Positions 338 through 59,960 of a stretch of DNA of 64,000 bases are shown here, in pieces. The stretch lies in the NCBI GenBank assembly GCA_964019695.1, contig OZ026517.1, positions 59,981,478 to 60,045,477 of the forward strand. Direction: 5' to 3'. The notes beneath the pieces were generated by a model. It ran no database searches. It saw only the letters and a list, made by a program, of their open reading frames with translations, and had not been told where the DNA came from. Origin of the DNA: Loripinus fragilis (lineage: Eukaryota > Mollusca > Bivalvia > Lucinida > Lucinidae). The translations under genes were made by a program, and so were the position numbers. The first letter of the stretch is position 1, and each line of letters starts with the position of its first letter.

Positions 338-365
338 CACGGGTTCCTCTGTACCAGGTAAGTAT
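338..365 (-). pseudogene. U1 snRNA gene, 5' fragment (nt 1-28) fused to LINE-0
   Basis: Minus strand reads ATACTTACCTGG, the U1 5' end that pairs with 5' splice sites, and then runs into the LINE leader. The U1 part together with the first LINE bases forms a hairpin, GAGGAACC paired with GGTTCCTC, in the place of U1 stem-loop I. Confidence 0.9.
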
Positions 366-831
366 GCTTGGACAGCGAAGGCCGTGCCTCTTAAAGCACA
401 AGGATCTCAATTCAAAGTGGTGTGGCGCCACCAGCTCCCAGCTCACGCTTCCACACGGTTCCCTCGCGCAGCTGCACGCCATGCACGTGCTCCGCGCCAT
501 GCACGTGCTCCACGAGCCTCTCCTCCAAGCAGCACGAACGAAATCCCACCTGCAGCTCGCACAATATAAAGGAGGCGCACGCTCAGCCTGAAAAACAAGG
601 ACATAAGCGATTAAGCACACAGGCAACGTCGCACATACGTTTCTGACACTCAACGTTTACATTGAGAAAGGGCGACAACTCTCCCTTTCAGCAGCTGCAA
701 CTGCAAATGCTACCTACTAGCCCACATTCAGACTGCCTGTCATGGCGTGATCTGATCTGCGCGAAAGCACAGGGGTTTTCCGGGAGTTCTGGGGATTTTG
801 GAAGGGTTTCTGTTCTGCAATGTCTTTGTTT
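366..831 (-). promoter_or_regulatory. U1 repeat spacer with U1-type promoter (466 bp)
   Basis: Spacer between two U1 units. The candidate proximal sequence element (PSE), minus CACTTTGAATTGAGATCC, lies at 402-419, i.e. -37 to -54 from the U1 start. The same 18 bases sit at this distance in all 13 spacers of the window. A TTTAAG stretch lies near -27. The PSE assignment rests on position and conservation, not on a match to a known consensus. Confidence 0.7.
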
Positions 832-885
832 CAGGGGTCAGCGCGTACGCAGACCCCCACACTTATAAATTGCGTACCCGAGTTG
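832..885 (-). pseudogene. U1 snRNA gene, 3'-terminal piece (nt 111-164), split by DNA transposon
   Basis: Contains stem-loop IV (GGGGGTCTGCG...CCCCTG on the minus strand) and the Sm-site region. The U1 3' fragment downstream of LINE-1 is cut here by the 886-5796 transposon; its other part is 5797-5873. One base differs from the intact copies (ggggtcagcg instead of ggggttagcg on the plus strand). Confidence 0.9.
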
Positions 886-1380
886 TAGTGTAGGCCGCTG
901 TGTAATTCCGTGTGCATTTTTTGGTAAAAGTGTCAAACATACATTTTCTTGTAGGAAAATGTATTCTGTTAAAGGAAAAAGATGTTTACAATTTTTCTTT
1001 GGCGTTTTAACGTCACAGTGACGTCACAAAGTAACGTACCCATTTTTAGCTTATTTAAGGCTTGAAAGTGGAGTGTTATGAATTCCAGCAGGCATAAACA
1101 TGAACTGTTCGATCAGTTGTGGTAATTTTACTGGCGATATGTTGAATTTGGAGCATAGACATTAACTTGAAAATGATGTCTGTATATGGAAAGTGACGTC
1201 AGTACCAAAATGAAAATTCTGCGATAGTGAAAGCTCAAATAGCTAGACCCTCCACTCCACAAAGCAGGGAAAATATTGTTTACTATAATTTTCTGAAACC
1301 ATATTATATAAGATGCAAATGGCATACGTTAGCTCTCTGACCTATATTTTGGCAGGCATGTTAACAACGTTACCCTATTA
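886..1380 (+). repeat. Left long degenerate terminal inverted repeat of the DNA transposon
   Basis: Blocks here recur inverted in 5275-5796: the terminal ~50 bp, AAGGAAAAAGATGTTTACAA, the TGACGTCA-type tract near 1010-1030, and the pair GTTAGCTCTCTGA and ACGTTACCCTA near 1327-1375. Similarity is patchy, so the arm is about 500 bp but not exact. Confidence 0.75.
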
Positions 1381-4300
1381 TAGTTTCAAATTCTATTTTT
1401 CAAATACCAAGTTATACCGAATTATTATTTATCGACATGCTGTTTGCCTTAAAACATTTTTAAATGGAGGGAACAGCCGGTATGCATTCAAACAATACAC
1501 CACCATGATGTTACAGTTATATATGTTACATTAAATGTATAACTATGTAATGCATTACTGTCACTAGACATAGGACTACCAAAATACCTTCTAGGGGGGT
1601 TTTGTACACGATAACTTTCAAAAACCACATTCTACAAATTCATTGCCACAAATTAATGAATGTTAACTCTTTAGCGGCTGGGGCGATACAACACAATAGC
1701 AAAAACTCTTATGTTACTGTAAAATAATTGGATATCTTATCTAATTACTCCTTATTCTTACATGACAATATAACCTTTTAATTGTAAACAGATGACTAGC
1801 AATATGATGTTATCAAAGTAGAAGGATCTGTTATTACGGTGACTTTACCGTTACTTTCTTTTAAATACATTTTCAAATTACAAAGTAACACTATTTAAGT
1901 TTACACTGCTAGTAGGACATGCATTGCCATTAAACTGCCATTAATTGTCTTTAAATGAAAATACCAACAACACATGGATGAATAAAAGCGTAAAATTTGA
2001 ACTTCATTCACATACAACGATTTTTAATGCATGTTTGATTTATTAAATATGCAAACAGCATTTTATTTTCTCAAATTTTTATTAAATGATATATTTTTTC
2101 TCACTGAAACTGATATATTTGCCTCTTTTATACGTGGAATGATATATAAAAGACACATATAAAGTCATTTAACCTATCAGAAGAAATGCTAGATGCTCCT
2201 CAGGAAAATTATTGTTGTTGTTTCACTACATTTATATGTTAACGTATGTGTAGTTTATAAACATTGTTATGTTATATTGTATCGTATTTAAGATACCACA
2301 ATAATATTAAGCATGGAATAGCTTAGTAAGATTTATCACATATTGTTTCAGCCAGGTATTAATTACAACTACTATGCTGATACCATTGAGAAATAAAACC
2401 TTTTCAGAATTTGTGAATGTAGGTCAATTCAAGCATATATATTAAAATCAGGAATTGAGAACTTTAAACGGTCCTTTATCCAAGTCTTTTGAAAAAAATA
2501 AACTGAAATGATTTAAAAACTTAGCGATCTTTGCCCAATGGTTAAAACTGCATATAACAGAACAATATCCAGTTTGGCGACAAAAGAATACCATTTAAAA
2601 TGGTAAATTGCATAACAAGAGAATTTTAAGGACATATTGCACTTATCATCTGTTCTGTCTGGTTCTAAACTATTGTAAAGCATTCAAACAGAACAATATT
2701 TGTTCTAATGATTCATTTTAGTCATACGTTTGAAAGATATATGTTTATCACTTAGAAAGGCCCCCAGGTATTGTTCGTATTAATGCATAATGTAGCCATT
2801 GCTGAAATAGCTGACTCGTATCAAATTATTTCTTTTAATAAATTATTTGTTTTGCATTATTCTATCAATTAAACCCATTAGTTTTATAGAGGAATTTTGT
2901 TGCATGTCAAATGTGAACATCATCGTTGATACAAAATTGCAGCCTAATAATAATCTTAGCATAGTCCAAATCAAACAAAATAGATGCACTAGTAATGGAA
3001 GAACAGATCAAAGTAATAAGCCCATTTGATTTTGGTACTTGTCGCAGTGTTGAGCAATAAAGGCTCAGGTGAGCCTGTGCATATGTTTAGGTAGACTTAC
3101 CAGAGCCTTCGCTGCTGGTATACACAAAGTAGTATGGTAGTTGATGACCAAATTTTAGAAAGCTAGCCCCTCTGCATCATGAAGAGTGATTAAAAATGCT
3201 TTTGCTAGTCAAAATAGTTATTTATGAAGTACAGTAAAAGTGTCTAAAAGTATTTTGCATCTGAAAGCAACGTAATTTATACTTGCGCTACTGTCAAAGA
3301 ACATATGTGGAATATAGCATTCAACATTTCGTAAACTATACCATACACATATATTACACAATTGACAATATGACACTGCTAAATCAATCTCTGAGATTTA
3401 TAATGATATCCTGTACATTAAAATGATATGATTTCTTTTAGAGATAGCTGAATAAAAGTATACATGGCAAATTAGGTATGTATAAGTTCATGCACATTTC
3501 TTTTTAACTTTGCATGTGCAACTATCATTGGTGACAATGTTGATACTGAGAAGATTGTCATCTTAATGTTGAACAGTTAGCATTGTGTATGCTCCTTTTG
3601 AATCCATGTCCTTGCAAGTTAACAACTCATTCTAATCTTAAGTACACATATACATGTAAACCATTGTTATTAATGATTACATTTATCATGTTTGCGAGGT
3701 TCCTGTACTGTTTTGCCAACGTTCTGTTTAGTGGAAATTATCATCAGGTGTATTAACATTTATTGCTAAAACTAAATAGGATTTTATCCCTTGACTACAT
3801 TTTTATAATGTTTCACATTTCTATCCATCATTCTAAAAAACATTGTAAAATCTCCTTTACAATAACTTGAATGTCACCTGTTATAATTTTGCCAGACACA
3901 ATTTTAGCTGAAAAGTCTTTATTGAATTGATATCGTTGTAACAGCTGAACTTTTTCCTTGCATATGACCATATGACCTTAAAGTCAAACTCACCACTATA
4001 ACCAACGTTCTCTATTTCCAGCGAAATGCATGTTTCTCATTAATAAAGCAGTTCTTTAGATATTATTGGTTGAGCAAAGTGATCCAAGGTACTAACTTAA
4101 TGTGATGGACAGTTTTGTTGATTGCACAACAAAAGCTATACTGTATATAAACTAAAATTAATTTCAAAGCTTCTGTAGTGCGGCACCATATGCATACACA
4201 GCTAAAAGTCAAGATACAAATTGATTTCGAGACAGTCACTTTAAATAATAACTCATTACAGACACTTTAAATAACTTAATTGAAGTAGCTCAATTAAACT

Positions 4301-5873: not shown

Positions 5874-7340
5874 TTTTTTTGTTTTTCATAAATTTAATAT
5901 AGTATTTACAATAAAAACCGGTGGGGTGTAAAAGCCCCACACGGCCGGTACCTTTAGCATGCATATACAATGATTGAAACCCTTAAAAAGACCTATGAAA
6001 AAACTTTATACATCGAAATATGAAAGATAAAAAATGTTATAGAGAAGTAATTGAAAAAGACCTAGATAGAAATTATTTGAAATATCTTGCAAGGAAAGAA
6101 AAAGAAAATGATAGATATGACTTTTATGGCAAATTGAATCCCTTAATATGCACTATGGCGGCATATATTCAACAATAGATAAATTGCATTGCGTTTTCAC
6201 AAACCTAAACCTTAAAAGGTACCGTGTGTTAGTATTTGAGATTACTTGACCACATACTAAATATTTTATACATTTGTATTTATGTTTTGCCAGTCTATTA
6301 GGTAAAAAAAAAAGAGAAAATCTTAGGAAAAAATGTCCTGCCTTCCATGTGTCCCTGGTCATGACACGAGCGTTGTGCACCTCGTGCACAAGGCTAGAGC
6401 CAGTGACCAAGTTCACATTTCAACCTGGGTCAGCCTTTAGTATGGGATATATGTAGAATATTTTCATACAATGTGGTATAAGCATAATGTATACAACGAC
6501 GGACATTGATCACAGAGGGCAAATGGGAGAGTTGGACTTGGGTCGCTCACTATTCTGGGGGAAAGACAAGAACCACTCACACATCCAAGAGACGAGGGCT
6601 CGGGTTCCCTCCCCACTTTGGCGTGGGAGTATTAAAAGGATATCCATATTTATTAACCTAATTGTGTTGTGCAGGTATAATTCAAAATTATCTTAGTCTG
6701 TAGTCAAGTAAGAGCTCTACATATATAGTTAGTACAATACAATGAATATTCACAAATGAAATGACAATTCTTTACTGTTCAGACAGCAACTGCAGTCTGA
6801 AAATAGAGACTAGTTTAAAACATGTACAAGATTATTTTCCATAATATAAACAAAATGACAATATAAATTGTAAGTATCAGAGGAGATAATGGCTAAATTA
6901 CCCGTAGTTTGGACTGAGATGAGTTCTGACATATAGTCAGGTCTGACCTCTGTCCAAAATACTAGTAATTCTCATAAGTAGATGATTAAAGTCACGATTT
7001 AAGTTAATCCTATAGTCTTTTCTTTGGAAAAAAAACAAACAGTGCAGATCCAGATTAGCCACTACATAACGCAGCATCCAATCAGGCTCTCCACTGTTTG
7101 CTTATATAATGTTATATTAATTTTGGATGAAAAGAAGAATCTAAGAAGGGGTAATGGATAATCTATTTGGCTTGAAGGGGTAAAAAGAATAACAAATTTT
7201 GAAGTGAACAATAAACGAAATGAAAGGTGTATTTTGCTTTGTTTAATAGGTTGTGGACGAAAGAAACCAGTGCAAACCAGGAGGAGACGTTAGCTAGGAC
7301 CACATCTCATCTAGTCTGTACTGCTTGCAATATTTATAAG
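5874..7340 (-). other. 3' UTR of LINE-1
   Basis: No gene. Reading inward from the tail there are two hairpins shared with the other full-length copies: a 3'-terminal one (5917-5949; ACCGG/CCGGT outside, TGGGG/CCCCA inside) and a nested one (6355-6411; inner stem TTGTGCAC/GTGCACAA, loop CTC). The part 6830-7340 matches the short 3' UTR of LINE-7. Confidence 0.85.
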
Positions 7341-10300
7341 TTATTGATTTTCTATCATTGTTTTTTGGAAATATTTTCTTATATCCAAAATGGGGTCAAA
7401 ACTTATTGTATCAGAAATAATTTCAATGCTGCAAAATCCTAAAGAAACCCAAGTATCAAAAAAGTCGTCCGCCATCAATCTTTCCTTATCAACCAGAATT
7501 CTAAATTTGATTTTATTTAAAAATTTTGAAACCACACCCAAACTAGTTATTGTTTTTAATTCGTGTTTAGCTAAATTTCTATTTGTCCAAATGATATGCC
7601 TGGACTCTGTAAGAAGAATTAATGCTACTTGTTTTTTGAATTTTGGAAGTTGAGGCAATACAAAATATCTAAAAGTTTTTTCTGAAAGTGAAATTTTGTT
7701 TTGGCTAAGCTTCTTTAACATAAACAATACAATTTTATTTAGGGGTAAGAAGACATTACATTCCAAAAACAGGTGAGTCACAGTTTCTATTTTATCACAT
7801 AAGGGGCAAGTCTTAATTTTTGAAATATGTTTATAGTAAAGATAATAATTAACATATATAACAACATGAATTAATTTCCAAAATGTATTACGGACATCAG
7901 GGTCAATATATGGCAAACTAATACTTTTCCAAATAGGCTTAAAATCTATATATGGGCACACTTTTTCTATTTTTGGCTGTATGCAAGTGTCTTGTAATAA
8001 TGTTTTGTATATGTGTTTCTTGTGAAATGAGTTAAAATCAATGTCTTCATTTGTATGTGTGAAATTGTCAAAAATTGATAAACATGTTTTGTAAAATATA
8101 GGAATGTATTCACTATGGGGGAACGCTGTTACTAGCAAAGGCTGGGTTAAACTTTCTAAGTTGCAAACCTATCCAATATTTAGCAAAGAAGGTCCAGTTA
8201 GCGTTATGGTTATTTATTAGCTTCTGCAAATGGTTTAAGTATATCGAATGGCACTTAAGTTTCACACATGGAACATTCAATCCTCCTTGATTAAAATCTA
8301 GATATAAGGTTTTTCTGGCCACAGGTCCAAATGTAGAGCTCCAAATAAATCTAAAGAATCGTCTTTCAAAAAGTGTGAGATAGTGAGAAGGTATTGGGTT
8401 ACAAGTAGCATAATACAATATTTTACTAAGACACAGAGAATTCAAAACTGTTGATTTCCCTTTAAAAGAAAGTTTCCTTGAAGTCCAAAGGTTAAGGGTT
8501 TTATCAATTTTCACATATATTTTCGACCATATATCATCATTACTGAAACCTGATCCAAAAAAGTAACCAAGAATTTTATAATGGTCAATCCAACTGATGC
8601 CAAAAGGGTGATCAGATCTAGTTTTCCATTTACCAAGGTACATTCCTTTCGATTTTTCATAATTTATTTTTGCTCCAGATACCTGTCCAAAAAAGTTTTA
8701 CCCAATAGAAATATTTTCGAATGGAGGAATCAGATGTCAAAAGTGCTGTACTATCATCAGCATATAAACTAAATTTCACTTCAGAACTAGAACCAGGTAA
8801 TTTAATTCCTTTGATATCGTCCAAGTTTCTGATTTTGTGTGCAAAAGGTTCGAAACATATAACATACAGGGGCATTGATAAGGAGCAGCCCTGTCTTACA
8901 CCTCGTTTGATTGGAAATGTATCAGATATATGATTGTTTACAATGACGGAAGAAGAAATGTCATTATAAAGAAGCTTGATCCATTTTAAGAAGTTTTCAT
9001 TAAAGCCAAACGCTGTCAAAGTATTGAGCATATAAGATCTAGACACTCTATCAAAAGCTTTTTCTTGATCTAAGCAAATGAAAGAGGCTCCCAAGTTTTT
9101 CTGGTCGACATAATCTATTACATTACGTATTAAGTGAAGGTTGTCAAAAATTGAGCGACCTTTAACAGAACAAGTTTGATCAATGCCAATAATTTTAGGT
9201 AGAATATTTCCAAGCCGAATAGTAATGATTTTGGAAATAATCTTATAATCAATGTTGAGAAGTGAAATAGGTCTGTAACATTTCATTTCATTAGCTCTAG
9301 TTTCATCTTTGCAAATCAGTGTGATGTATGATAGTTTCTGAGATTCAGATAATTCACCATTCTTGTATGCCAAGTTAATTATTTCACATAAAACGTCACC
9401 AAACAAGTGAAAGAATTTCAAATAGAAGGTATTTGTCAAACCATCACTACCAGGTGATTTATTGGATTTCATTTCTTTCAGGGCGTGCAAAATTTCATCT
9501 TTTTCTATTTTCTTTTCCAGGAACAGATTATCGGAGGGGTCTATCTGAGGAAGGCCATCAAAGAAGAGAGAATTTAAGGATGGGTCAACAGGATCTTCAT
9601 TATATAGGCTTCGGTAAAAGGATCGAAAAGAGGTAAGTATATCTTTGGAGTTATTGTATGTGTTGTTGTTGTGTTGTATTGTTTTTATTGTTTTTTGTTT
9701 GCCTTGAGATGCTTCTTTTTGAAAGAAGAATGTTGTTGGATTTTTATTACTTTCAATATTTTGTGTTTTGCTGCGAATAATTGTGCCTTTTAATATGTTA
9801 TTTTCTATTTCTTTTACTTTTAGCTTAATATCATTATATATATGTAAGTCTGATTCAGATTGCAAATTTAAATGTGAGTATTGTTTTTTTAAGTGTTTTA
9901 ATTCACCAAATTGTTTTCTGTTTTTTGATTTACTGTAGTCTATACAAAACAGTTTAATTTGAGTCTTAATATAATCCCACCATACTAAAGTTACATCTTT
10001 ATTTTGTGTCAACATCTGCCAAAAGAATTCAAAGGATCTTACAAAATCATGGTCATCCAATAGTTGATCATTAAATTTCCAATAAGATTTGCCAATATCA
10101 ATTCCACTGTCAGGAGCCAAGGTCATTTTAATAAAACTATGATCTGAACATGCACAGGGTAGTGTCTCAAAAGAAGATACTGAGTTACAAATTAGTTTTG
10201 AAGTGTAAAATCGATCAATTCTTGTGCCAACAATATCATAATTTGATGTATCATTCCCAGTTGCAACATTTGATCTTGTCCAAGTTACTGTTTTTTTATT

Positions 10301-10861
10301 AGGGTTCAAATGTCGAAAACAGTCTGAAAGACTAAATTTTTCAGCAAGAGTTTTAAAGGTTTTTGACCCAACAGTGCCTTTGCTTAAGTTTCCGCCAATT
10401 TTGTCCAAATTTGGGTCCAATATAAAATTGAAATCACCACCAAGGATAATATTTTTTGCCCCAGATATGTATTGCGCAAAAGTATTTAGAAATTCTAGTC
10501 TATCTGAAGATTCACTCGGAAAATAAGCGTTAACAATCCTGAAGTTTTCAAACCCATCAGCGGCAAAGTCTAAACGAATCACTCTGCCGTAGAAGTCTAA
10601 GTGAAAATTTTCAATCTGAATATTATCCTTAATAAGAAGAATAGCCACTCCACATGAGTCAGCTCTACCAAAGTTCCAAATGATTTTATCTTCTAGTTCC
10701 AAAGTTCTTTCAATAGTTTTTGCCAATCGCATATTGTCAACAAAAGTTTCTTGGATCAATAAAATGTCAATCTTATTCTGATCTATAAACTGTTTTACCA
10801 ATCGTTGTTTATAGTTGGATCTAAATCCGTTAATATTTATGCTAGAAATGTTCAAATCCAT
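7341..10861 (-). pseudogene. ORF2 of LINE-1 (endonuclease + reverse transcriptase), two frameshifts
   Basis: The start MDLNISSINI is at 10861. Piece one (8657-10861) carries the endonuclease motifs (NINGFRS, QETF, GGDFNF, RIDRFY, CSDH) and the RT up to YADDSTALL. The frame is lost near 8691-8696, where a run of six A replaces five. Piece two is in 8113-8643. The frame is lost again near 8116-8120, where five G replace the four seen in LINE-6. Piece three (7341-8138) holds the CPLC...H...C finger. Both lesions are homopolymer length changes, so sequencing error is possible. N-terminal two thirds resemble LINE-4, the rest LINE-7. Confidence 0.9.
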
Positions 10862-10955
10862 CTTGATATGAATATATGCTAATTATGTATATAGAATTCC
10901 AAGTTTCAAAACTACAGTAGTGGTAATAGAACATGTATATAGTTATCAAAAAAGT

Positions 10956-10994
<39 letters not shown>

Positions 10995-11112
10995 GCAAAA
11001 GTATAAAATATAAACAAAAGAGTGTACAAATGTTTTGGGTCTTGAGCAGGTCCAACATTTAGTTGGGCCTGATCTTGTTCCAAACCATTTGCAAGGAAAG
11101 TCAATTGCCTGG

Positions 11113-11165
<53 letters not shown>

Positions 11166-11276
11166 GCATAAAATATAAGTTTTAGGGCATGCAGATGTTT
11201 TGATTCTAGAGCAGGCCCGACATTTAGTCGGACCTGGTCCTGGGCCAAAACACTTGTAAAGAATGTCAATTTGCAA

Positions 11277-11321
<45 letters not shown>

Positions 11322-12706
11322 TATAATAAATAATATTAATATTAAGATGCAAAAATGTTTTGGATCCAGATCAGGCCCGACTGTAAGTCGGGCCTGATCC
11401 TGGTCCAAACCATTTGCGAAGGTTTTGAAGGGATATATTTTTTGTAATAGATAAGTGTTTTGTGTAAATATGGTAATATTGGGGGGAGACCTACTAGAAA
11501 TCTGATGATGATGATATTTATTATATATATACATGTATTTACAGTACTGGTATGGGATAATGGTAGATATCACATGTGAACATTTGCTGAAGATAGCCCA
11601 AGTTCGAAAAGGGTTATAAACTGGGTGGATAAGGTATAATATATAAAGACTTATCTGTCTTATTGCTGTGCAGATATGCAAAACAGCTTTGATAAAGGTT
11701 AGAGTCTGCACTGAGTAGAAGATGATATTATGACAGGTAAAGTATCTCAGATTCATCATCGTATATGGAATCATGGGGAGTGTTCGGCCATAAATTTGCA
11801 AAATATAGCAGACTAGTGATCGTACAGCAGGACCAAGGTACAGTGTATTTATCCAATGCATTTGTACACTAAAAATATTTAGCAGGCAAAAGGTAAAAGC
11901 CAGTGGTGATTTTTCCAATAGTTTTACTCGCAGTAAATAAACGTCTGCTATTGAAGCGAATTGCTATAGAGAAGCCAGGTAAAACAGAAAATCAATACAG
12001 CGTAGAGCTTGATAAGACATAAATAAGTTGCATGGTTCAAAAAATACAGGTGAGGTGTATTTTTAGGTAGACCAAGGTAAAGCGTGGTCGCATAGTAACG
12101 ATGTACATGAGTGAACAATATATCTAAAGTGGTGTGATTTATAGCGTTAATAGAGGCCATGTACATGTATATCAATCTGTTGGATAGCAATGTTAGAAGT
12201 TGTTTGTAAACCAGTTTTGGGGGGATGGAAAATAAAACTTTATCCAATGAGGGGATGTATATATATATATGAGTTTTTATGCTTTTCAAAATTGGGGTAA
12301 GGGAGCAGTGAACATGCATATGATATGAAAAATGGCTTGTAGCTACTAGAGTGGGTGACGGGAACATTAGGGGCTGTTTACAGAGCGGAAACATTAGGGG
12401 CATAGCATCGCTATAGGAATTTATAGGGTAGTTTATTGGGTGTAGATGGCTATAGTATTTGGAAATGTATTGGAGAGGGGTTGTGAAAGGATGGATAAGG
12501 CTACATATGGGTGAAAGCAAAACACAACACAGCATGGATAAATACAATAAAATGGTTACAAACCAGGCAATTTTATAATGTATAATTGCCTTAGAGGTAA
12601 AATCCAATCTCGCAGTCCGTTGCCATTTCCGGGTCTCGCATACCAAACAAGGATTGACAAATCCGTAATCTAAAAACTCATTATCCATAAACATTGCCAT
12701 TTTCAT
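10842..12706 (-). pseudogene. Middle ORF of LINE-1, broken by a 16-nt deletion
   Basis: The start ATG at 12706 overlaps the ORF1 stop as TAATG, as in LINE-4. The frame is open through 11948-12706 (252 aa), then lost near 11966-11972, where 16 nt present in LINE-4 (near 38613-38630) are missing; it is open again over 10842-11918. Compared with LINE-4 it also lacks 18 nt near 12214, in frame. The distal part holds (TAA)n tracts and three palindromic units. It overlaps the ORF2 start by 20 nt. The function is unknown; the product would be hydrophobic. Confidence 0.65.
10960..11420. repeat. (TAA)n tracts alternating with three ~55-bp palindromes
   Basis: Three TAA runs (about 10961-10995, 11117-11164, 11277-11322) alternate with three inverted-repeat units (about 11030-11085, 11190-11250, 11353-11412). 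A unit has the form TTTGGATCCAGATCAGGCC, a short loop, then the complementary arm ending in GGTCCAAAC. The period is about 160 bp. Confidence 0.85.
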
Positions 12707-13806: not shown

Positions 13807-13844
13807 ATTGGATATAGACTCTAGACAAGAGGAACCGATGTTGA

Positions 13845-13872
13845 CACGGGTTCCTCTGTACCAGGTAAGTAT
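13845..13872 (-). pseudogene. U1 snRNA gene, 5' fragment (nt 1-28) fused to LINE-1
   Basis: Minus-strand U1 start ATACTTACCTGGTACAGAGG, then CCCGTG, then the LINE leader. GAGGAACC/GGTTCCTC pair perfectly around a new loop, replacing U1 stem-loop I. Confidence 0.92.
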
Positions 13873-20396: not shown

Positions 20397-20418
20397 TTTG
20401 TAAGCGTAGAGGTTGAAC

Positions 20419-21438: not shown

Positions 21439-21474
21439 ATTGATTGACAAAAAATACAAGAGGAAACAATTAAT

Positions 21475-40490: not shown

Positions 40491-40528
40491 ATTTGATATA
40501 GACGCTAGACAAGAGGAACCGATGTTGA

Positions 40529-40556
40529 CACGGTTTCCTCTGTACCAGGTAAGTAT
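40529..40556 (-). pseudogene. U1 snRNA gene, 5' fragment (nt 1-28) fused to LINE-4
   Basis: U1 start through GAGGAAACCGTG, then the LINE leader TCAACATCGGTTCCTC; an SL1-like stem remains possible with one bulged A. Confidence 0.92.
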
Positions 40557-47806: not shown

Positions 47807-47828
47807 TTTGTAAGCGTAGAGGTTGAGC

Positions 47829-48848
47829 CTATTCAACATCAACATCAACATCAGCATCAACATCCTTATCCAAATCAGAGGTGTCCCCAAAAATAGCCTC
47901 ACTGGTTGGTGGAAGGCCAAGCTGAGAAAACATGTTCGAAGTGGAGGCAGGTGGCTCTGGCGACAACTGTGTCATCCTCGCCGGCTTATTGGGGGGGATG
48001 AAACCGTCGTCGTCATCGTCTGTATCCCGCCTCCTCTTCGAACTAGCAACTGCCATCTCTATATCCTCAGTGGTGCCCGTTTGCACCTCCGACACATCCC
48101 CGCCAACCACTGGAACCCCGGTACCCCCAACAGGGGGTGGGGAAGCACCCTCTGAGCGTACTGGCTCAGACAGTACCTCCCCCCTGGGTTCCCTAGCTGA
48201 CTGGGCAGCCGGACGAACAAAAGAAGCAACTCTTGAATACCTGGTTGATTCACATTCCCGCCTAGTATGTCCTACCTCATGGCATTTTAAACATAAGGGG
48301 GGTCTACCTTGCATTGTTATGAGCATGGATTGCCCACAACCAAACTTGACCATATGAGGGATCCTTTGTTTTGACTTTTCATCAGTTTTGAGGGTTACTT
48401 CCCTCATTCCGTTGAAGGTACATACATTAGTATATGAGGTTTTATTATGCTTTACCTCTAAAACTTCGCCATAGTCACAAAATATGGCCTTCAATAGCCG
48501 ATCTTGGTAGTAGAGGGGTAACCAATGTACTCTTAGTGAGACAATTTGCTCTGAACAAAGCATCACTGTAAATCTCTTACTGCCACGCCCAATAAACTTT
48601 GCATCCATCAACCTCTTGGCTGTATGTCTGTCTTTCATAGTTAGATTGAAAGATCTGTCATTTGAACTGACCTTGTAAAGTCCAGTTAAGTCCTCCGCCT
48701 TCAGCCCCTCATCTTCCAAAGCTATAAACACATCACCATAGCTCAGCGTACCATACTCTGTTGGAGTCAATCTGACCGTCAATTCCAGCTGATCTTCATC
48801 AATGTAATTGGTTTCATTGCCATCAAAATGAATGATTGGATTTGCCAT
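47829..48848 (-). CDS. ORF1 protein of LINE-5, 339 aa
   Basis: MANP start at 48848; appears identical to LINE-2 ORF1. Zinc knuckle CLKCHEVGHTRREC; acidic Asp/Val tail. Confidence 0.92.
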   Translation of the reverse strand: MANPIIHFDGNETNYIDEDQLELTVRLTPTEYGTLSYGDVFIALEDEGLKAEDLTGLYKVSSNDRSFNLTMKDRHTAKRLMDAKFIGRGSKRFTVMLCSEQIVSLRVHWLPLYYQDRLLKAIFCDYGEVLEVKHNKTSYTNVCTFNGMREVTLKTDEKSKQRIPHMVKFGCGQSMLITMQGRPPLCLKCHEVGHTRRECESTRYSRVASFVRPAAQSAREPRGEVLSEPVRSEGASPPPVGGTGVPVVGGDVSEVQTGTTEDIEMAVASSKRRRDTDDDDDGFIPPNKPARMTQLSPEPPASTSNMFSQLGLPPTSEAIFGDTSDLDKDVDADVDVDVE

Positions 48849-48884
48849 ATTGATTGACAAAAAATACAAGAGGAAACAATTAAT

Positions 48885-48912
48885 CACTGTTTCCTCTGTA
48901 CCAGGTAAGTAT
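48885..48912 (-). pseudogene. U1 snRNA gene, 5' fragment fused to LINE-5
   Basis: U1 nt 1-28 with end GAGGAAACAGTG. GAGGAAAC/GTTTCCTC stem across the junction, as in LINE-2. Confidence 0.92.
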
Positions 48913-50766: not shown

Positions 50767-52401
50767 TTTTTGTTTTTCATAAATTTAATAGTATTTACAA
50801 TAAAAACCGGTGGGGTGTAAAAGCCCCACACGGCCGGTACCTTTTTGCATGCATATACAATAATTGAAAACCTTAAAAAGACCTATGAAAAACTTTATAC
50901 ATCGAGATATGAAGATAAAAACTTTTTATAGAGTAAATAATTTAAAAAGACCTAGATAGAAAATTATTGAAAGTATTGTAAGGAAAGAAATGGAAAGGAT
51001 AGATATAACTTTTATTGCAAATTGAATCCCTTAATATGCTCTAGGATGGCATATATTCAACAATTGATATATTGAATTACGTGTTCACAAACCTAGCCCT
51101 TAAAAGGTACCGTATGTTAGTACTTGAGATGACTTGACCACAGACTATTTATTCTATTCATATAACATCTATTTTTGGCAGTCATATAATTAAGCAGTAC
51201 AGGGGAAACATAGTCTATATTATTTTTTGAAATTATTGGTTCTGCCTTTCACATGTGTTTCTGGTCCTGACACGAGCGTTGTGCACCACGTGCACAAGGC
51301 TAATGTCAGTGACCAAATTCACATTTCAAACTGGGTCAGCCTTTGGAACTTATTACTTGGCATGAGCATAATATCTACAACGACAGACATTGATCACAAA
51401 GGACAAACATGGGACATTTTGGACTGGGGTCACTCACTATTCCTGGGGGTGAAAGACAAAACTACTCACACATCCAAGAGACGAGGGCTCGGGTTCCCTC
51501 CCCACTTGGGTGTGGGAGCATGTTTTTTTATAAGCATTTGTAAATTGTTAATAAAAAGAAAAAACGTCAGATGCAGTTGTGTCAAAAAACATTCACAGGC
51601 TGTAGTCAAGTCATTACTCTACAAATAATGGTTAGTACAATATAGAAGAATATTCACAAATGACAAAATGAGATTCTTTTCATTATCAGACGGCAACAGC
51701 AGTCTGAAATAGAGAAACTATTTTAGAATATGTACAAGGTTATTTCAGAAATAGCAACTTTAAGTCTATATATACATAATAATCTATCCGGATGCTAAAA
51801 AGTTGATCTAAATTGCTAAGAATTTGGATCCAGATCAGACTTGACATGTTGTCACGTCTAATTTGGAATCAAACTATTTGCAAGGATCGTAAGTGGTGGC
51901 AAAAAGTCGCTACTTTGGGCGAAAGAAAATCGCATCACTGTATCAGGTAATAGAAAAATCAATCTTAATAAGATGGCGTTTATGGGTTCTAAAATGTTTG
52001 GATCAAGATCAGGTTGAATATTATCAGTCTGATTTTATTTCAAACATTTTTGAAGATATTTTAGTATATTATATAAGTTTTTATTGGATTATATATCTTG
52101 AGAAAAAAGTAAGATCAAAATAATTGTCATCATAATGCGAAAAAATTCAGATCAAAATCAGACCAGATATTTTATCAGCTCTGATTGTGGCCTAAATTTT
52201 TTTTTTTTTTCAAGTTTTCCTGGTAATAATCGCCATATTTGAAAATGAATAGTATATGATTTTAATAGAAAATATATATATTTAGCCATAGGGTAAGAGC
52301 GAAAAAACAAATAGTAAAAACTAGGAGGAGACACTGGCAATAGCTTACGCTTCATCCTAGTCTATATCATTTGTTATCCTTATAAGCTTGAAATTTGTTT
52401 A
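50767..52401 (-). other. 3' UTR of LINE-6
   Basis: Near copy of the LINE-3 3' UTR: 3'-terminal hairpin 50806-50838, nested hairpin 51261-51315 with a perfect inner stem, three palindromes (~51827-51885, ~51997-52055, ~52148-52200), and the ACTAGGA/TCCTAGT stem at 52320-52361. No gene seen. Confidence 0.85.
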
Positions 52402-55400
52402 TCATTGTTGTTGAAAGTATCTTCGTATATCTAAAATTGGTTCAAAAGTGATTGTGTTTGAAATAATTTCGATATTGCAAAACCCTAAGGAGCACCATGT
52501 ATCGAAAAAGTCGTCTGCTGTCAGTCTGTCCTTATCAATAAGAATTCTAAATTTAATTTTATTCAAAAATTTAGAAACCACGCCAAAAGCAGTAATGTTT
52601 TTTAATTCATGTTTTGCTAAATTTCTATTTGTCCAGATGATATGTCTCGACTCTGTTAAAAGAATTAATGCAACTTGTTTTTTGAATTTAGAAAGTTGAG
52701 GCAACACAAAGTATCTAAATGTTCTTTCTGAAAGTGAAACCTTATTTTGGCTAAGTTTCCTTAACATGGACAGGACAATTTTATTTAAGGGTAAAAACAC
52801 ATTGCATTCTAAAAAAAGATGGGAGACAGTTTCAATTTTATCACACAATGGGCAGGTCTTAATCTTTGAAATATGTTTTTGATATAAGTAATAATTTACA
52901 TAAATAACATCATGGGTTAATTTCCAAAAGGTATTACGAACATCAGGGTCAATATATGGCAAACTAATACTTTTCCAAATAGGCTTAAAATCTATATATG
53001 GGCACAATTTTTCTATTTTTGGCTGTATGCAAATGTCTTGTAATAATGTTTTGTATATGTGTTTCTTGTGAAATGAGTTAAAATCAATGTCTTCATTTGT
53101 ATGTGTGAAATTGTCAAAAATTGATAAACATGTTTTGTAAAATATAGGAATGTATTCACTATGGGGAACGCTGTTACTAGCAAAGGCTGGGTTAAACTTT
53201 CTAAGTTGCAAACCTATCCAATATTTGGCAAAGAAGGTCCAGTTAGCGTTATGGTTATTTATTAGCTTCTGCAAATGATTTAAGTATATCGAATGGCACT
53301 TAAGTTTCACACATGGAACATTCAATCCTCCTTGATTAAAATCTAGATATAAGGTTTTTCTGGCCACAGGTTCAAATGTAGAGCTCCAAATAAATCTAAA
53401 GAATCGTCTTTCAAAAAGTGTGAGATAGTGAGAAGGTATTGGGTTACAAGTAGCATAATACAATATTTTACTAAGACACAGAGAATTCAAAACTGTTGAT
53501 TTCCCTTTAAAAGAAAGTTTCCTTGAAATCCAAAGGTTAAGGGTTTTATCAATTTTCACATATATTTTCGACCATATATCATCATTACTGAAACCTGATC
53601 CAAAAAAGTAACCAAGAATTTTATGATGGTCAATCCAACTGATGCCAAAAGGGTGATCAGATCTAGTTTTCCATTTACCAAGGTACATCCCTTTCGATTT
53701 TTCATAATTGATTTTCGCCCCAGATATTTGTCCAAACAGTTTGACCCAGTGTAAGTATTTTCGAATAGAGGAGTCAGTGGTCAAAAAAGCAGTACTATCA
53801 TCTGCAAACAAACTTAGTTTCACCTGAGAAGTTGTACCTGGCATGTTGATACCTTTGATATCATCCGAGTTTCTAATCTTATGCGCAAAAGGTTCAAAAC
53901 ATATAGGGGCATAGATAGGGAACAACCCTGCCGAACGCCTCTCTTAATTGGAAAAGCCTGAGATATGTGATTATTTACAATGACTGAAGAAGAAATATCA
54001 TTATATAGAAGCTTGACCCATTTTATAAAGTTACTATTAAATCCAAACGCTGTCAAAGCATCAAACATATATGACCTAGATACTCTATCAAAAGCTTTTT
54101 CTTGGTCCAAACAAATAAACGAAGCTGCCAAGTTTTTCTGATCAACGTAATCTACAATGTTCCGTATCAAATGAAGGTTATCAAAAATTGATCGTCCTTT
54201 CACAGAGCAAGTTTGATCTATGCCAATGATTTTTGGTAGCACTTTCCCAAGTCGAACTGTAATTATTTTCGAAATGATTTTGTAATCAATATTCAAAAGT
54301 GAGATGGGCCTATAGCATTTCATTTCTTCTGACCTAGTTTCATCTTTGCAAATCAAAGTAATATATGACAATTTCTGAGTTTCAGATAATTCTCCAGTTT
54401 CATAAGCTAAATTTATAATTTTACAAAGAACATCACCAAATAGATGAAAGAATTTCAAATAGAAGGCGTTTGTTAGACCGTCACTACCAGGAGATTTATT
54501 GGGCTTCATTTCTTTAAGGGCATGCAAAATTTCATCTTTTTCTATTTTCTTTTCAAGGAAGAGATTATCGGATTGGTCAATCTTGGGCAAATCATCAAAG
54601 AAAAGGGAGTTTAAAGATGAGTCAACAGGTTCTTCACTATATAGAGTTTCATAAAAGGACCTAAAGCAGGTAAGTATGTCTTTTGAGTTATTATATGTGT
54701 TTATGTTGTGTTGTATTGTTTTTATTGTTTTGTTTTTACTTATTGTTGCTTCTTTTTGAAAAAAATATGCACTAGGTTTTTCATTTTCTTGTATAGATTG
54801 AGTTTTGCTACGAATCATTGAACCTCTAAGAATATTATCTTCTATTTCTTTTACTCTAAGTTTGATGGCATTGAATGTATGTAGGTCAGATGTAGATTCT
54901 AAATCAAGTGTTGAATATTGCTTTTTTAATTTTTTAAATTCACCAAATTGTTCCTTGTTTTTTGATTTGCTGTAGTCAATGCAAAATATTTTTATTTGAT
55001 ATTTCATATGATCCCACCATTTCAAAGTTATTTCCTTAGTTTCAGAAATGAATTTCCAAAATTTTTCAAAATAATTTAAGAAGTTGATGTCATCCAATAA
55101 CTGATCATTGAATTTCCAATAGGATTTACCAATGTCTATTCCAGAGTTTGCAGTCAAGTTCATTTTGATAAAACTATGGTCCGAACATACACAAGGTATA
55201 GTGTCAAAAGTATTGATTGAGTTACACATATATTTTGAAATATAAAATCTGTCGATCCTAGTGCCAATCATATCATAGTTTGGTTTATCATTCCCAGTTG
55301 CAACATTTGATCTAGTCCAAGTTACAGATTTCTTATTAGGGTTTATGTGTCGAAAGCAGTCTGTTAAATCAAATTTATCAACAATAGTTTTAAAAGTTTT

Positions 55401-55898
55401 AGAGCCAATGGTACCTTTCTTTGGATTGCCACCAAGTTTGTCCAAGTTTGGATCCAATATAAAATTAAAATCACCGCCAATGATAACATTTTTTGCTCCA
55501 GTTATGTGCTGTGAGAAAGAGTTCAGAAATTCCAATCGTTCAGCAGATTCACTTGGAAAGTATGCATTAACAATTCTGAAGTTTTCAAACCCATCAGTGG
55601 TAAAGTCTAAATGGATTACTCTACCATAAAAATCTGAGTGAAATTTTTCAATCTGAATGTTATCTTTAATAAGAAGTATTGCAACACCACAAGAATCACT
55701 CCTACCAAAGTTCCATATGATTTTATTTTCCAATTCTAAAGTTTTTTCAATAGATTTTGCCAAACGTAGGTTATCAACAAAAGTTTCTTGCATTAATAAT
55801 ATATCAATATTGTTCTGTTCTATAAACTGTTTTATCAATCTGTGTTTATAGTTGGATCTAAACCCATTTATATTAATGCTTGAAATATTCAAATCCAT
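52402..55898 (-). pseudogene. ORF2 of LINE-6 (endonuclease + RT), frameshift in the RT
   Basis: The MDLN start at 55898 is chosen by homology; the frame is open further upstream to 56012. Endonuclease and RT are intact up to RQGCSLSMPLYV, then 7 nt present in the other copies are missing near 53903-53910 and the frame is lost before YADD. In the second frame (52402-53925) the catalytic motif reads LFADDSTAFL, Phe for Tyr, and the CPLC-H-C finger remains. Confidence 0.9.
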
Positions 55899-56029
55899 TG
55901 TACTGATTGATATTGTATGCCAAGCATATATAAAAGACAAAGTTTCAAAACACAGCACAATAAGGGATACAAATAAACAGTCAGATAATAGAGCATATGG
56001 AAGTTGTAACAATATGTGATAATAATAAC

Positions 56030-56060
<31 letters not shown>

Positions 56061-57667
56061 TTTATTGTGCTTGTGGACAGTATAAGTGGTAGTATTGCAT
56101 GTATAGATGGTGATGCAAGTAGTTGCTGTTGGATTATCATATTTTCAAACAATATTGGATCCAGATCAGCTCCACAAAAATGTTGAGTCTGATCTGAGTC
56201 CAAACCATTTGTAAATGTTGTCGGCAGAAAAAATATGAGCACGATGAAAATTATTTGTTGGAAAAGTAATAGTGTTGACCGTGATAAGGGCCAATGTATA
56301 TATATGGGATTTGTAGGTTTGTTTATATATAGGTGAAGATGATGATGATAATAATGATGATAATATATATACATGTATATACAATATGATTGAGGGTTTG
56401 TGGTGGAAAGGTCAGGAAAGTGTCCATTGAAAATCATCCAGCTAAACAAGATCAACATAAGATGAATAATAAGGTAAATACGGTACAGTATAGCACATAT
56501 TTTTAGTCTTAGTGCTGTACAGATCTGCAAAATATATAGACAGAAGTTTAGAGTCTGTACTGGTAAGAAGGTGTTTTTAGAACATGCATTCAATCTTAGA
56601 TTCATCGCAATATATGAAATTATGGGGAAATATATGCTATGAGTGTATGTTTGCCAAATATAGCATAATCTCCAAGGTGTAAATTTAACAGGACTAAGGT
56701 GCATACAAACTAACCAAGGTAGTTGTCGGTATAAAATACTCAGCAGGAACAAGGTAAGTAACATACAGTCGACAAGAGATTTTTCCAATACTACATATCG
56801 TTCAGATTTATCGTCTGCTTTTAGAGCGAATTGAGACGATTTTATACACCAAAAATACGCCCAGGTAAACCAGTAAATCGATGAAACAGTGTAGCGCTTA
56901 ATCAGGCGTTTAGCGAGTGCAGGGTTCAAAATATACATGAGGTGTAAAAATAGTTTATGTAAACCAAAGTGTGGCGTGATCACGTAGCTACTAAGTGTAT
57001 ATACATGTACTGGTAATGTATCTAAGGTTGTTTGATATGAGGCGTTAAACAGGTACATGTATATCCATCTCAATCTGTGTGAAAGCAATATAAGAAGTTT
57101 ATGTCCAAGTATATTGGGTCCCAAACCTATTAGCTCTAAGAAGGACGAAAAACATTTGAGCTTGAGAATAAAGCCAGTTACACAGGCAAAATGGCTGAAA
57201 TATAGATAATGAGGGATGAAACATCTCTGCGCATGGTATGAGTTGAGAAAAACTTTGTAATAGGGAGTGGTTGGAGTTTGTTTAACTAGATATGGTGACG
57301 GGAGCATTAGGGACATTTGATTTTTATAAGACGGGAGCATTTGGGACATGGAATGGCTATAGGAATATATATGGTGGTGTAATGTGGGATAATGGCTATA
57401 GGATCCAAAATCAGTATGGGGTGGAGCTATATTGGGATTGAAAATGGTATATATGGAAAAATAAATAACACAATACATGATACATATATTTAAACAGGCG
57501 AAAGCATGTATGAAACAAAGAAATACAAACCAGGCAATCAAAAACATTGAGATTGCCGTATAACCATTGATCTTTCTCACAGTCGGGGGCCATTTCCAGG
57601 TCACACATGCCGGACAAGGATTTGCCATTCCATAATCTAAATACTCATAATCGGTCAGTCGGTCCAT
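55889..57667 (-). CDS. Middle ORF of LINE-6, 592 aa hydrophobic protein of unknown function
   Basis: Start MDRLTDYEYLDYG at 57667, 7 nt after the ORF1 stop; ends QWI inside the ORF2 start. NPCPACVTWKW near residue 18 aligns with NPCLVCETRKW of LINE-4. Shared short motifs with LINE-3 include RWIYM, QTLNF..LQICTA and MYIYYHH. Only one palindromic unit (~56155-56212). The (TAA)n tract gives an Ile run. No known family. Confidence 0.55.
56015..56215. repeat. (TAA)n tract and single ~55-bp palindrome in LINE-6
   Basis: TAA run at ~56019-56058. Palindrome at ~56155-56212: TTGGATCCAGATCAGCTC with the complementary arm GATCTGAGTCCAAACC. Confidence 0.8.
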
Positions 57668-57674
57668 TTTGAAA

Positions 57675-58664
57675 TTACATATTTTTATTGAGTACTCTGG
57701 TGCTAGCCATCAAACATTCATAATGATTATCCAGAGAAGGTGGAGAGGGGACCCCAGACTGGGACGCTCTCGCCGTCTTATTCGGCGTAAACCAGCCGTC
57801 ATCAGTCTCAGATTCCCTCTCCCTCTTCGAACTGGGCTGTTCCATTTCAATAGAATCAAGTAGCTGTTCCTGTGACCCCCTGCCAACAGCACCAACCTCC
57901 CCAGATCCCACAGCTGTGGGTGCTGGTGTGCTATCTGGGTTCGAAATATCGTTCCCAGAACGCACATCAGGCTGAGGAGGGGGGGCATCAGGCCGGGTCA
58001 CAGCAACAGCCGGGATGCTTCTAGTATGTAGAACTTGTGCATAATTTAGTCTTCCAGGACATCTCGATCTTATGTGACCAGTGCAGTTACAACGAAGACA
58101 ATAGGGTGGCCGGCCAGGTATGGTCAACAAGATACTCTGGCCAGAGTTAAAATTTACTAGATGGGGGATAATGTGCTTTCTAAACTCATCAGTCTTGAGT
58201 TTAACCTCCCTGCTTCCATTGAATGTAGTGATCTTAGCATGGGCTGTCTTCATCATCTTTATGTCCAACACTTCACCATATTTGGAGAAAAGCTCATACA
58301 ATATACTGCTATCGTAGTAAATGGGGAGCCAGTGTACACGAACAGTGACCACTTGCTCTGCCATTTTCATTATGTCATATATCATATTCCCTGCCTTCAA
58401 GCTGGCTGTCTCAATAAATGGTTGGATTGAATCGTCATACTTGAGCAGAATGGAGAAAGAGTTATCTGTAGGGCTTACCTTGAATATGCCCTCTATTTCA
58501 GCTGTTGGAACCCCAACCTGTTCTATAGCATCTAGAAGTTCGCCATAGCTAGCTCCTCTTCCGCTCTCCCTGGGGACAAGCCTCACAGTCCGCTCCATCT
58601 TATCAACGTTGATGTATTCAGTCTCCTGACAATCAAACTTAATAACAGGTTCCATCCTTGACAA
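57675..58664 (-). CDS. ORF1 protein of LINE-6, 329 aa
   Basis: Start MSRMEPVIKF at 58664 (a second ATG three codons on). SYGELLDAIEQVG near residue 40, HWLPIYYDSSILYELFSKYG in the middle, zinc knuckle CLRCNCTGHIRSRC, then a Pro/Ala/Ser stretch and SSKRERESETDD. It lacks the Asp/Val tail of the other ORF1s and ends LNKNM. Confidence 0.9.
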   Translation of the reverse strand: MSRMEPVIKFDCQETEYINVDKMERTVRLVPRESGRGASYGELLDAIEQVGVPTAEIEGIFKVSPTDNSFSILLKYDDSIQPFIETASLKAGNMIYDIMKMAEQVVTVRVHWLPIYYDSSILYELFSKYGEVLDIKMMKTAHAKITTFNGSREVKLKTDEFRKHIIPHLVNFNSGQSILLTIPGRPPYCLRCNCTGHIRSRCPGRLNYAQVLHTRSIPAVAVTRPDAPPPQPDVRSGNDISNPDSTPAPTAVGSGEVGAVGRGSQEQLLDSIEMEQPSSKRERESETDDGWFTPNKTARASQSGVPSPPSLDNHYECLMASTRVLNKNM

Positions 58665-58710
58665 TTTTAAGTACTAACAAACGTTAGAAATACACCAAGA
58701 GGAAACACAA

Positions 58711-58736
58711 AGGTTTCCTCTGTACCAGGTAAGTAT
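58711..58736 (-). pseudogene. U1 snRNA gene, 5' fragment fused to LINE-6
   Basis: U1 nt 1-26 through GAGGAAACCT; a perfect 8-bp stem GAGGAAAC/GTTTCCTC with a 6-nt loop CTTTGT spans the junction. Confidence 0.9.
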
Positions 58737-59202
58737 GCTTGGACAGCCAAGGCCGTGCCTCTTAAAGCACAAGGATCTCAATTCAAAGTGGTGTGGCGCC
58801 ACCAGCTCCCAGCTCACGCTTCCACACGGTTCCCTCGCGCAGCTGCACGCCATGCACGTGCTCCACGCCATGCACGTGCTCCACGAGCCTCTCCTCCAAG
58901 CAGCACGAACGAAATCCCACCTGCAGCTCGCACAATATAAAGGAGGCGCACGCTCAGCCTGAAAAACAAGGACATAAGCGATTAAGCACACAGGCAACGT
59001 CGCACATACGTTTCTGACATTCAACGTTTACATTGAGAAAGGGCGACAACTCTCCCTTTCAGCAGCTGCAACTGCAAATGCTACCTACTAGCCCACATTC
59101 AACCTGCCTGTCGTGGCGTGATCTGGTCTGCGCGAAAGCACAGGGGTTTTCCGGGATTTCTCGGGATTTTGGAAGGGTTTCTGTTCTGCAATGTCTTTGT
59201 TT
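58737..59202 (-). promoter_or_regulatory. U1 repeat spacer (466 bp)
   Basis: Candidate PSE at 58773-58790. Confidence 0.7.
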
Positions 59203-59366
59203 CAGGGGTTAGCGCGTACGCAGACCCCCACACTTATAAATTGCGTACCCGAGTTGTCCACATTTGGGACAATCGCAGCCGTCAGCCCAACCGAAGTGCA
59301 ATGGAAGGGCCTCCTGCTGGAGGAACCGCCTTGTTGATCACGGTTTCCTCTGTACCAGGTAAGTAT
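59203..59366 (-). ncRNA. U1: U1 snRNA gene, uninterrupted (164 nt)
   Basis: Same sequence as 21940-22103. Confidence 0.95.
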
Positions 59367-59832
59367 GCTTGGACAGCCAAGGCCGTGCCTCTTAAAGCAC
59401 AAGGATCTCAATTCAAAGTGGTGTGGCGCCACCAGCTCCCAGCTCACGCTTCCACACGATTCCCTCGCGCAGCTGCACGCCATGCACGTGCTCCACGCCA
59501 TGCACGTGCTCCACGAGCCTCTCCTCCAAGCAGCACGAACGAAATCCCACCTGCAGCTCGCACAATATAAAGGAGGCGCACGCTCAGCCTGAAAAACAAG
59601 GACATAAGCGATTAAGCACACAGGCAACGTCGCACATACGTTTCTGACATTCAACGTTTACATTGAGAAAGGGCGACAACTCTCCCTTTCAGCAGCTGCA
59701 ACTGCAAATGCTACCTACTAGCCCACATTCAACCTGCCTGTCGTGGCGTGATCTGGTCTGCGCGAAAGCACAGGGGTTTTCCGGGATTTCTCGGGATTTT
59801 GGAAGGGTTTCTGTTCTGCAATGTCTTTGTTT
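59367..59832 (-). promoter_or_regulatory. U1 repeat spacer (466 bp)
   Basis: Candidate PSE at 59403-59420. One base change near 59459 relative to the neighbouring spacer. Confidence 0.7.
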
Positions 59833-59960
59833 CAGGGGTTAGCGCGTACGCAGACCCCCACACTTATAAATTGCGTACCCGAGTTGTCCACATTTGGGAC
59901 AATCGCAGCCGTCAGCCCAACCGAAGTGCAATGGAAGGGCCTCCTGCTGGAGGAACCGCC
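59833..59960 (-). pseudogene. U1 snRNA gene, 3' fragment (nt 37-164) after LINE-7
   Basis: 128 nt, same start nucleotide as at the other six junctions, although the LINE joined to it has a different 3' end. Confidence 0.92.

Follow-up and report, generated by a model that had tools for sequence, protein, structure and literature searches.

U1 gene array and its LINE copies

We analyzed a 64-kb stretch of contig OZ026517.1 from the lucinid bivalve Loripinus fragilis (the window; 36.6% GC), which contains a minus-strand tandem array of U1 small nuclear RNA (snRNA) genes split at one position by copies of a long interspersed nuclear element (LINE). The array has a repeat length of approximately 610-630 bp, and 14 U1 units were found in the window; six of them are intact and eight are split by the LINE (occupancy, 8/14). 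A first-pass annotation of this DNA had taken a 164-nt unit to be U1 and had pointed to six uninterrupted genes as empty sites. Both claims were borne out by a covariance search against the Rfam model RF00003, in which the unit at 21940-22103 showed a score of 141.6 bits (E, 5.7e-36) and the five other units, identical to it, scored the same, compared with a gathering score of 69.5 bits. Five of the LINE-interrupted units were also above the gathering score (70-75 bits). The intact genes are listed below.

59203..59366, minus strand: intact U1 gene (empty site), RF00003 141.6 bits
50009..50172, minus strand: intact U1 gene (empty site), RF00003 141.6 bits
49379..49542, minus strand: intact U1 gene (empty site), RF00003 141.6 bits
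41023..41186, minus strand: intact U1 gene (empty site), RF00003 141.6 bits
22550..22713, minus strand: intact U1 gene (empty site), RF00003 141.6 bits
21940..22103, minus strand: intact U1 gene (empty site), RF00003 141.6 bits

The LINE copies, E0 to E7, all lie in the U1 sense orientation, and E0 and E7 cross the window edges with one junction each. Each copy carries, where complete, two open reading frames (ORF1 and ORF2) with a middle frame (ORFm) between them.

59961..64000, minus strand: E0, 5' part outside the window; ORF2 60476-63991 open
50767..58736, minus strand: E1, U1 nt 1 to 3' end; ORF1 57675-58655, ORFm 55889-57667; ORF2 broken into two frames
41781..48912, minus strand: E2, ORF1 47829-48848, ORFm 46604-47806, ORF2 43110-46613, all open
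32693..40556, minus strand: E3, ORF1 39393-40490, ORFm 37501-39393, ORF2 33996-37520, all open
23288..32098, minus strand: E4, ORF1 broken, ORFm 28413-30953, ORF2 24919-28422 open
14437..21502, minus strand: E5, ORF1 20419-21438, ORFm 19194-20396, ORF2 15700-19203, all open
5874..13872, minus strand: E6, ORF1 12706-13806 open, ORFm and ORF2 broken; mosaic
1..365, minus strand: E7, 5' end only, rest outside the window

Counted from U1 nt 1 to their 3' ends, the six complete copies span 7,066-8,811 bp, with no 5' truncation in any of them. All frames are open in E2, E3 and E5, and at least one frame is broken in each of E1, E4 and E6. No long terminal repeats (LTRs) appeared in a self-comparison of the window, which was not accompanied by a separate LTR search.

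Cells require U1 RNA for splicing. In the RF00003 alignment, the intact units have AAUUUAUAAG as the Sm site and GAUCAACAAG as the 70K-type loop, both of which depart from the usual consensus, and it may be a variant form of U1 that the array encodes. Scattered U1 pseudogenes produced by L1-like retroposition were ruled out, as the units are tandem and have upstream regions and spacers in common. A U1 26-mer gave no match in the genome contig collection, and a U1 18-mer gave a single match in the viral contig collection (L001), which had no Rfam match.

Target site and junctions

The 3' junctions between the LINE and U1 were located at 59960, 50766, 41780, 32692, 23287, 14436 and 5873, and all seven were joined to GGCGG at U1 nt 37, as the first-pass annotation had claimed. 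It had also placed the 5' part of U1 ahead of the copies, and we found both the upstream region of U1 and its first nucleotides (nt 1-22 or more) at each of the seven visible 5' junctions (58736, 48912, 40556, 32098, 21502, 13872 and 365). At the target site, U1 reads ...GTGATCAACAA before and GGCGGTTCCTC... after the junction, a position in the loop of stem-loop I. Every visible 3' end (7/7) carries a tail of A4-A7, and U1 nt 35-36 are also AA, so that any position from 34/35 to 36/37 is compatible with the antisense nick. The earlier proposal of a nick on the strand opposite U1 sense, between nt 36 and 37, is one of these placements.

The 5' junction of E4 retained U1 nt 1-47 with one extra T, and nt 37-47 are thereby repeated (approximately 11 bp); this repeat was kept only partly in the other lineages. 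The retention of nt 1-47 suggests that a second cut falls near nt 47/48, with a duplication of approximately 11-13 bp. The 3' end of E0 lies approximately 960 nt short of the matching position in E6, yet it has the same junction at U1 nt 37; the site therefore seems to be independent of the usual 3' tail. For about four lineages landing at random in a unit of approximately 620 bp, and assuming independence, the chance of agreement at one nucleotide is about (1/620)^3 = 4e-9. The window shows a constant 3' junction in a multicopy gene, as is seen for site-specific LINEs.

ORF2 and ORF1 proteins

15700..19203, minus strand: ORF2 of E5, apurinic/apyrimidinic endonuclease (APE), reverse transcriptase (YADD) and zf-RVT
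20419..21438, minus strand: ORF1 of E5, RRM-type domains (predicted fold) and a CCHC knuckle (by eye)

ORF2 encodes 1,167-1,174 residues. The Pfam matches of E5 ORF2 were RVT_1 (4.4e-31), Exo_endo_phos (2.5e-10) and zf-RVT (2e-7), and PF03372 and PF00078 were above the cut-off in both ORF2 proteins submitted. Among structures in the PDB, the best match was human L1 ORF2p (E, 7e-73), and R2 ranked well below it (9e-18). The QET, GDFN, SDH and (Y/F)ADD motifs, which have catalytic roles, aligned with those of L1 ORF2p. By these predicted ORF2 domains, the A tail and the target duplication, the element has the features of an APE-type non-LTR retrotransposon, that is, a LINE. Target specificity for U1, as proposed at the first pass, was supported within the window, as were same-strand orientation, an APE-type LINE and the empty sites. 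The first-pass annotation had also called ORF2 L1/Tx1-like; this grouping was supported only partly, by the match to L1 ORF2p and by the apparent type of ORF1. The Tx1 clade is recognized by an RRM/CCHC-type ORF1 and an APE-type ORF2 close to L1, although such features are not clade-specific.

RRM_1 was found below the Pfam cut-off in two of the four ORF1 proteins, and the other two had no match; zf-CCHC was not matched by Pfam in any of the four, and a single CCHC knuckle was read by eye. PDB sequence matches were weak (E, 0.03). The predicted fold of ORF1 had a mean predicted local distance difference test (pLDDT) score of 57.7, with residues 21-200 mostly at 68-87 and a dip to 54. Foldseek searches with this model returned RRM proteins, with 93 matches at E values up to 0.001 (best, 1.3e-6); in the best 50 of the 93, the TM-score was approximately 0.2 by query and the root mean square deviation was 9-17 Å. 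From this fold and the knuckle read by eye, ORF1 looks like the RRM plus CCHC type. No transposase was detected by Pfam among the six LINE proteins submitted, and no relatives of ORF2 were found in the viral or genome contig collections with profile A1 and two peptide patterns each.

U1-derived leader and 3' end

58699..58736, minus strand: E1 leader, U1 nt 1-25 and a stem-loop-I-like hairpin

Leaders of the same type as that of E1 were present at 48912, 40556, 32098, 21502, 13872 and 365. U1 nt 1-22 were identical across all seven copies having a 5' end, and past nt 22-25 the leader sequence was lineage-specific, with the exception of E4, in which U1 continued through nt 47. ORF1 has its first ATG at a distance of 64-95 nt from U1 nt 1, and the unique 5' untranslated region (UTR) between the hairpin and this ATG is only 21-47 nt. 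As evident from these distances, the LINE has almost no 5' UTR of its own, and the U1 start together with the stem-loop-I-like hairpin appears to serve as its leader; with so short a unique 5' UTR, transcription from the U1 promoter is the simplest reading.

The leader hairpins had predicted energies of -9.6 to -17.0 kcal/mol and p values of at most 0.004 against 500 mononucleotide shuffles, which are optimistic, as the segments were chosen by their arms. In a test of contiguous helix runs, p was below 0.05 in three of the five distinct leaders (E2, 0.026; E4, 0.0145; E6, 0.034). The 3' arm TTCCTCTT was retained in all leaders, with loops that varied in sequence and length. These observations are suggestive of selection on the leader hairpin. 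An intact target motif remained at only one of the seven 5' junctions (E4), and its loss could shield the other elements from re-insertion. E6 and E7 share a leader, yet they occupy different upstream haplotypes. A self-cleaving ribozyme at the LINE 5' end was considered and ruled out, as the leader is a simple hairpin and Rfam, at the gathering threshold, reports only U1.

At the other end of the element, a poly(A) hexamer (AATAAA or ATTAAA) was found 23-25 nt before the end in six of seven copies (E1-E6) and at -7 in E0, a count made without a chance control in AT-rich sequence.

Stop-free middle frame

19194..20396, minus strand: ORFm of E5, middle frame without stops, ending in a TGA that overlaps the ATG of ORF2 (ATGGATTTGA)

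The frame between ORF1 and ORF2 was stop-free in five of six copies (E1, E2, E3, E4 and E5); the one stop in the frame count of E4 arises because the counted region begins upstream of its ORFm ATG. In the broken copy E6, whose ORFm entered only the shuffle stop count and the E3/E6 indel comparison, the region contained 12 or more stops in every frame. In 300 dinucleotide shuffles per copy, the lowest stop count in any frame was 11-28. At the observed divergence, approximately 27 stops (minimum, 12) would be expected in ORFm by chance, and none was observed within the frame of the five open copies. The ORFm ATG lies shortly after the ORF1 stop (TAATG in E3), and the ORFm stop overlaps the ORF2 ATG as ATGGATTTGA in E1, E2, E4 and E5 and by a longer overlap in E3. 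The frame is 400-846 codons long.

In the E1/E3/E4 pairs, substitutions were nearly even over the three codon positions, with a ratio of nonsynonymous to synonymous substitution (dN/dS) of 0.55-0.71; pairs with E2/E5 were saturated. ORFm had no Pfam match and no PDB match, and a confident fold was not obtained from five sequences (pLDDT, 35.6). As the frame is stop-free while its sequence drifts, selection would act less on a particular protein than on keeping the frame open. ORFm most likely serves as a stop-free ribosome corridor from ORF1 to ORF2.

We also observed a direct repeat (85%) in the ORFm of E4 at 28689-29563, with an offset of approximately 189 bp at its start, a multiple of three. 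It extends the frame, and HFVGPDLDP-like peptides recur.

Number of insertions and array duplication

E2 and E5 were 99.3% identical, and E3 and E6 were 98-99% identical from the 5' end to mid-ORF2; both pairs could be array copies, and the seven junctions are thus not seven independent events. Counting lineages A, B and C, which are divergent, and adding E0 for its separate 3' end, approximately four events remain. Self-comparison revealed a 14-kb duplicate block (14782-28863 versus 42196-56273; 94%), across which identity was uneven, with 99.3% between E2 and E5 and 90% between E1 and E4.

Frames that were broken or cut were left out of the dN/dS calculations (ORF1 of E4; ORFm of E6 and E7; ORF2 of E1, E6 and E7). 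Between ORF2 lineages, synonymous divergence (dS) was 0.7-1.1 and dN/dS was 0.085-0.105 in nine of ten comparisons, the tenth being the near-identical E2/E5 pair (0.22). These values indicate, at the sequence level, that ORF2 is under purifying selection. ORF1 showed 52-59% nucleotide identity between lineages.

In a comparison of approximately 400 nt of flank, only one site varied among the spacers on the downstream side of E0, E1, E2 and E3, and those upstream of E1-E4 were identical. The near-identical E2 and E5 occupy clearly different spacer haplotypes, whereas E5 and E6, although different LINEs, have nearly the same upstream haplotype; the type of LINE is therefore not tied to the U1 unit that contains it, whether retrotransposition, recombination or both are the cause. 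In addition, E6 is a mosaic that is E3-like (98-99%) to mid-ORF2 and then E0-like (94%) through ORF2 and the early 3' UTR, which indicates that elements of the array recombine or switch templates. The first-pass annotation had not noted this mosaicism, nor that several copies are not independent, nor the U1-derived leader, the open middle frame and the poly(A) hexamer.

Proposed mechanism

We consider it probable, at about 0.84, that these copies represent an autonomous family of APE-type LINEs that is driven by U1, carries ORFm as a corridor and uses target-primed reverse transcription to insert at a single site in the loop of U1 stem-loop I. ORF2p would nick the antisense strand of U1 between nt 34 and 37, and copying of the LINE RNA would start at the short A tail. 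The target duplication of approximately 11-13 bp (nt 35/37-47), almost intact in E4, would result from a further cut near nt 47/48. The inserted LINE would then be under the control of the U1 promoter, with transcription beginning at the U1 start site and yielding an mRNA that contains, in order, U1 nt 1-22/25, the stem-loop-I-like hairpin, ORF1, ORFm and ORF2, and that would terminate at its own poly(A) signal. As such an RNA begins with U1 sequence, the end of its cDNA could anneal to the 5' half of U1 at a new target, yielding a full-length insertion with the leader carried along. ORFm would couple termination of ORF1 to initiation of ORF2 as a stop-free ribosome corridor. The fuller proposal that the host U1 promoter, start site and stem-loop I have become the 5' end of the LINE itself, with a tricistronic mRNA containing the corridor, is held tentatively, at somewhat less than even odds. 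If it is true, keeping the 3' arm of stem-loop I and mostly losing the target loop would retain the leader structure while stopping re-insertion at the element's own 5' junction, and a long ORFm selected mainly for the absence of stop codons would supply ORF2.

Alternative explanations

Several points weigh against this mechanism. The evidence comes from one U1 array in one 64-kb window. The array has clearly undergone duplication, gene conversion or recombination, which makes the number of independent insertions uncertain, and the short 3' end of E0 could have originated from an A-rich (microhomology) deletion. The U1 promoter and start site of the LINE are presumed from identity with the intact units. 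One alternative is that the junctions stem from one or two chance insertions, with no target specificity, that were multiplied by unequal crossing-over and gene conversion. The large internal duplication, the near-identity of E2 and E5, mosaics such as E6 and the homogenised U1 flanks are all consistent with such a history, but it is improbable given the ORF2 lineages: a dS of 0.7-1.1 at a dN/dS of approximately 0.09 argues for divergence during replication by their own proteins and not by passive copying of the array. ORF1 is likewise only 52-59% identical while the spacers downstream of E0-E3 differ at one site, identity is uneven within the duplicate block, and E0 reaches the same U1 nucleotide with a different 3' end, which the microhomology deletion could mimic. 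It is also unlikely, though less so, that the 5' part of U1 is ordinary target DNA, that the LINE has an internal promoter and that the leaders are decayed target-site duplications. E4 holds a nearly exact U1 nt 1-47, which is what a plain duplication would leave, and the helix-run test was not significant in E1 (p, 0.153) and E3 (p, 0.284). However, the 21-47 nt from hairpin to ATG leave little room for an upstream promoter of the element's own (as distinct from one inside ORF1), the leaders are lineage-specific and common to E6 and E7 in different upstream haplotypes, and the 3' arm is constant while the loops change.

As for ORFm, the frame may instead encode a real, fast-evolving membrane protein, a prospect that we regard as less likely than not but substantial. 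Each ORFm copy contains 5-11 hydrophobic stretches of 19 residues, more than the two alternative frames, which are cut by stops, in E1, E4 and E5 but not in E3; ORFm of E1, E3 and E4 shows approximately 40% amino acid similarity, and its start and stop positions are conserved. Two further results count against our reading. The dN/dS of ORFm is 0.21 on 11 changes between E2 and E5, which speaks against a pure corridor, and only 11/19, 15/24 and 11/17 of the ORFm indels in three lineage pairs (37/60 in total) were multiples of three. On the other hand, mean hydropathy was similar across the three frames, and the near-even substitutions in E1/E3/E4, the lack of Pfam and PDB matches and the low-confidence fold favor the stop-free corridor.

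Another insertion in the array

A separate 4.9-kb insertion (886-5797, minus strand) was found within the 3' portion of the U1 unit that lies behind E6. It has inverted repeats at its ends, TAGTGTAGGCC...GGCCTACACTA, together with a probable duplication of 3 bp (CAA) and no frame of 250 residues or more, and by these features it looks like a non-autonomous DNA transposon.

Comparison with known systems

Known LINE hosts include U2, rRNA and tRNA genes, and no U1-specific LINE was among the matches listed in our literature search, which did not extend to Repbase, Dfam and most subscription journals. The first-pass annotation placed Keno in the Tx1 clade, together with Mutsu (5S) and Dewa (tRNA) as further RNA-gene-specific members. 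According to a report from 2015, the elements known by then from snRNA genes were limited to Keno and Utopia in U2, Dada-U1 and Dada-U6, so that a DNA transposon, Dada-U1, is the sole one given for U1 (PMC4640811). Keno, as described there, is an APE-type LINE in a spliceosomal snRNA gene (PMC4640811). It is the nearest functional analogue of the present LINE; the two are likened by description, and their targets differ (U2 for Keno and U1 here). Utopia is also described in that text as a snRNA-gene LINE, one whose 3' boundary is precise and whose 5' boundary varies (PMC4640811); it differs from the present LINE in its restriction-like endonuclease and its U2 target.

Dada-U1 resembles the present LINE in its fixed site inside U1 genes, according to the relevant section of PMC3706591. 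In contrast, it is characterized in an excerpt of PMC8869645 as a DNA transposon with a DDE transposase and a target-site duplication of 6-7 bp, not a retrotransposon. That duplication, likely GCGAAT/GCGAAC, falls by our reading near nt 91 of the window U1 and not at nt 34-37. The LINE has reverse transcriptase and APE domains in ORF2, no transposase among the six proteins submitted and a duplication of approximately 11 bp in E4.

The site-specific LINEs R1 and R2 depend on transcription of their host genes, the rRNA genes being transcribed by RNA polymerase I (Pol I) and U1 genes by Pol II. Like the present LINE, they occupy a host RNA gene array, that of 28S rRNA, as outlined in parts of PMC3706591 and PMC5035012. 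The difference is that here a U1 gene, and not an rRNA gene, would supply the start site and the leader. If this is true, a U1-driven LINE would be a clean example of parasitism on a Pol II snRNA promoter, and it would explain both a LINE lacking its own promoter and the full-length state of the insertions found here. A site-specific endonuclease that targets U1 would also be of practical interest for gene insertion.

SART1 reportedly has an overlapping stop and start (UAAUG) between its reading frames. E3 is similar in having TAATG at the ORF1/ORFm boundary, whereas the present LINE differs from SART1 in having two such junctions with a stop-free frame of 400-846 codons between them. A drifting, stop-free middle frame, if confirmed as such, would make translation coupling over more than 1 kb testable. 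What is new relative to these systems is a site-specific LINE that targets U1 and also has a 5' end derived from U1, together with an open frame of unusual type between ORF1 and ORF2.

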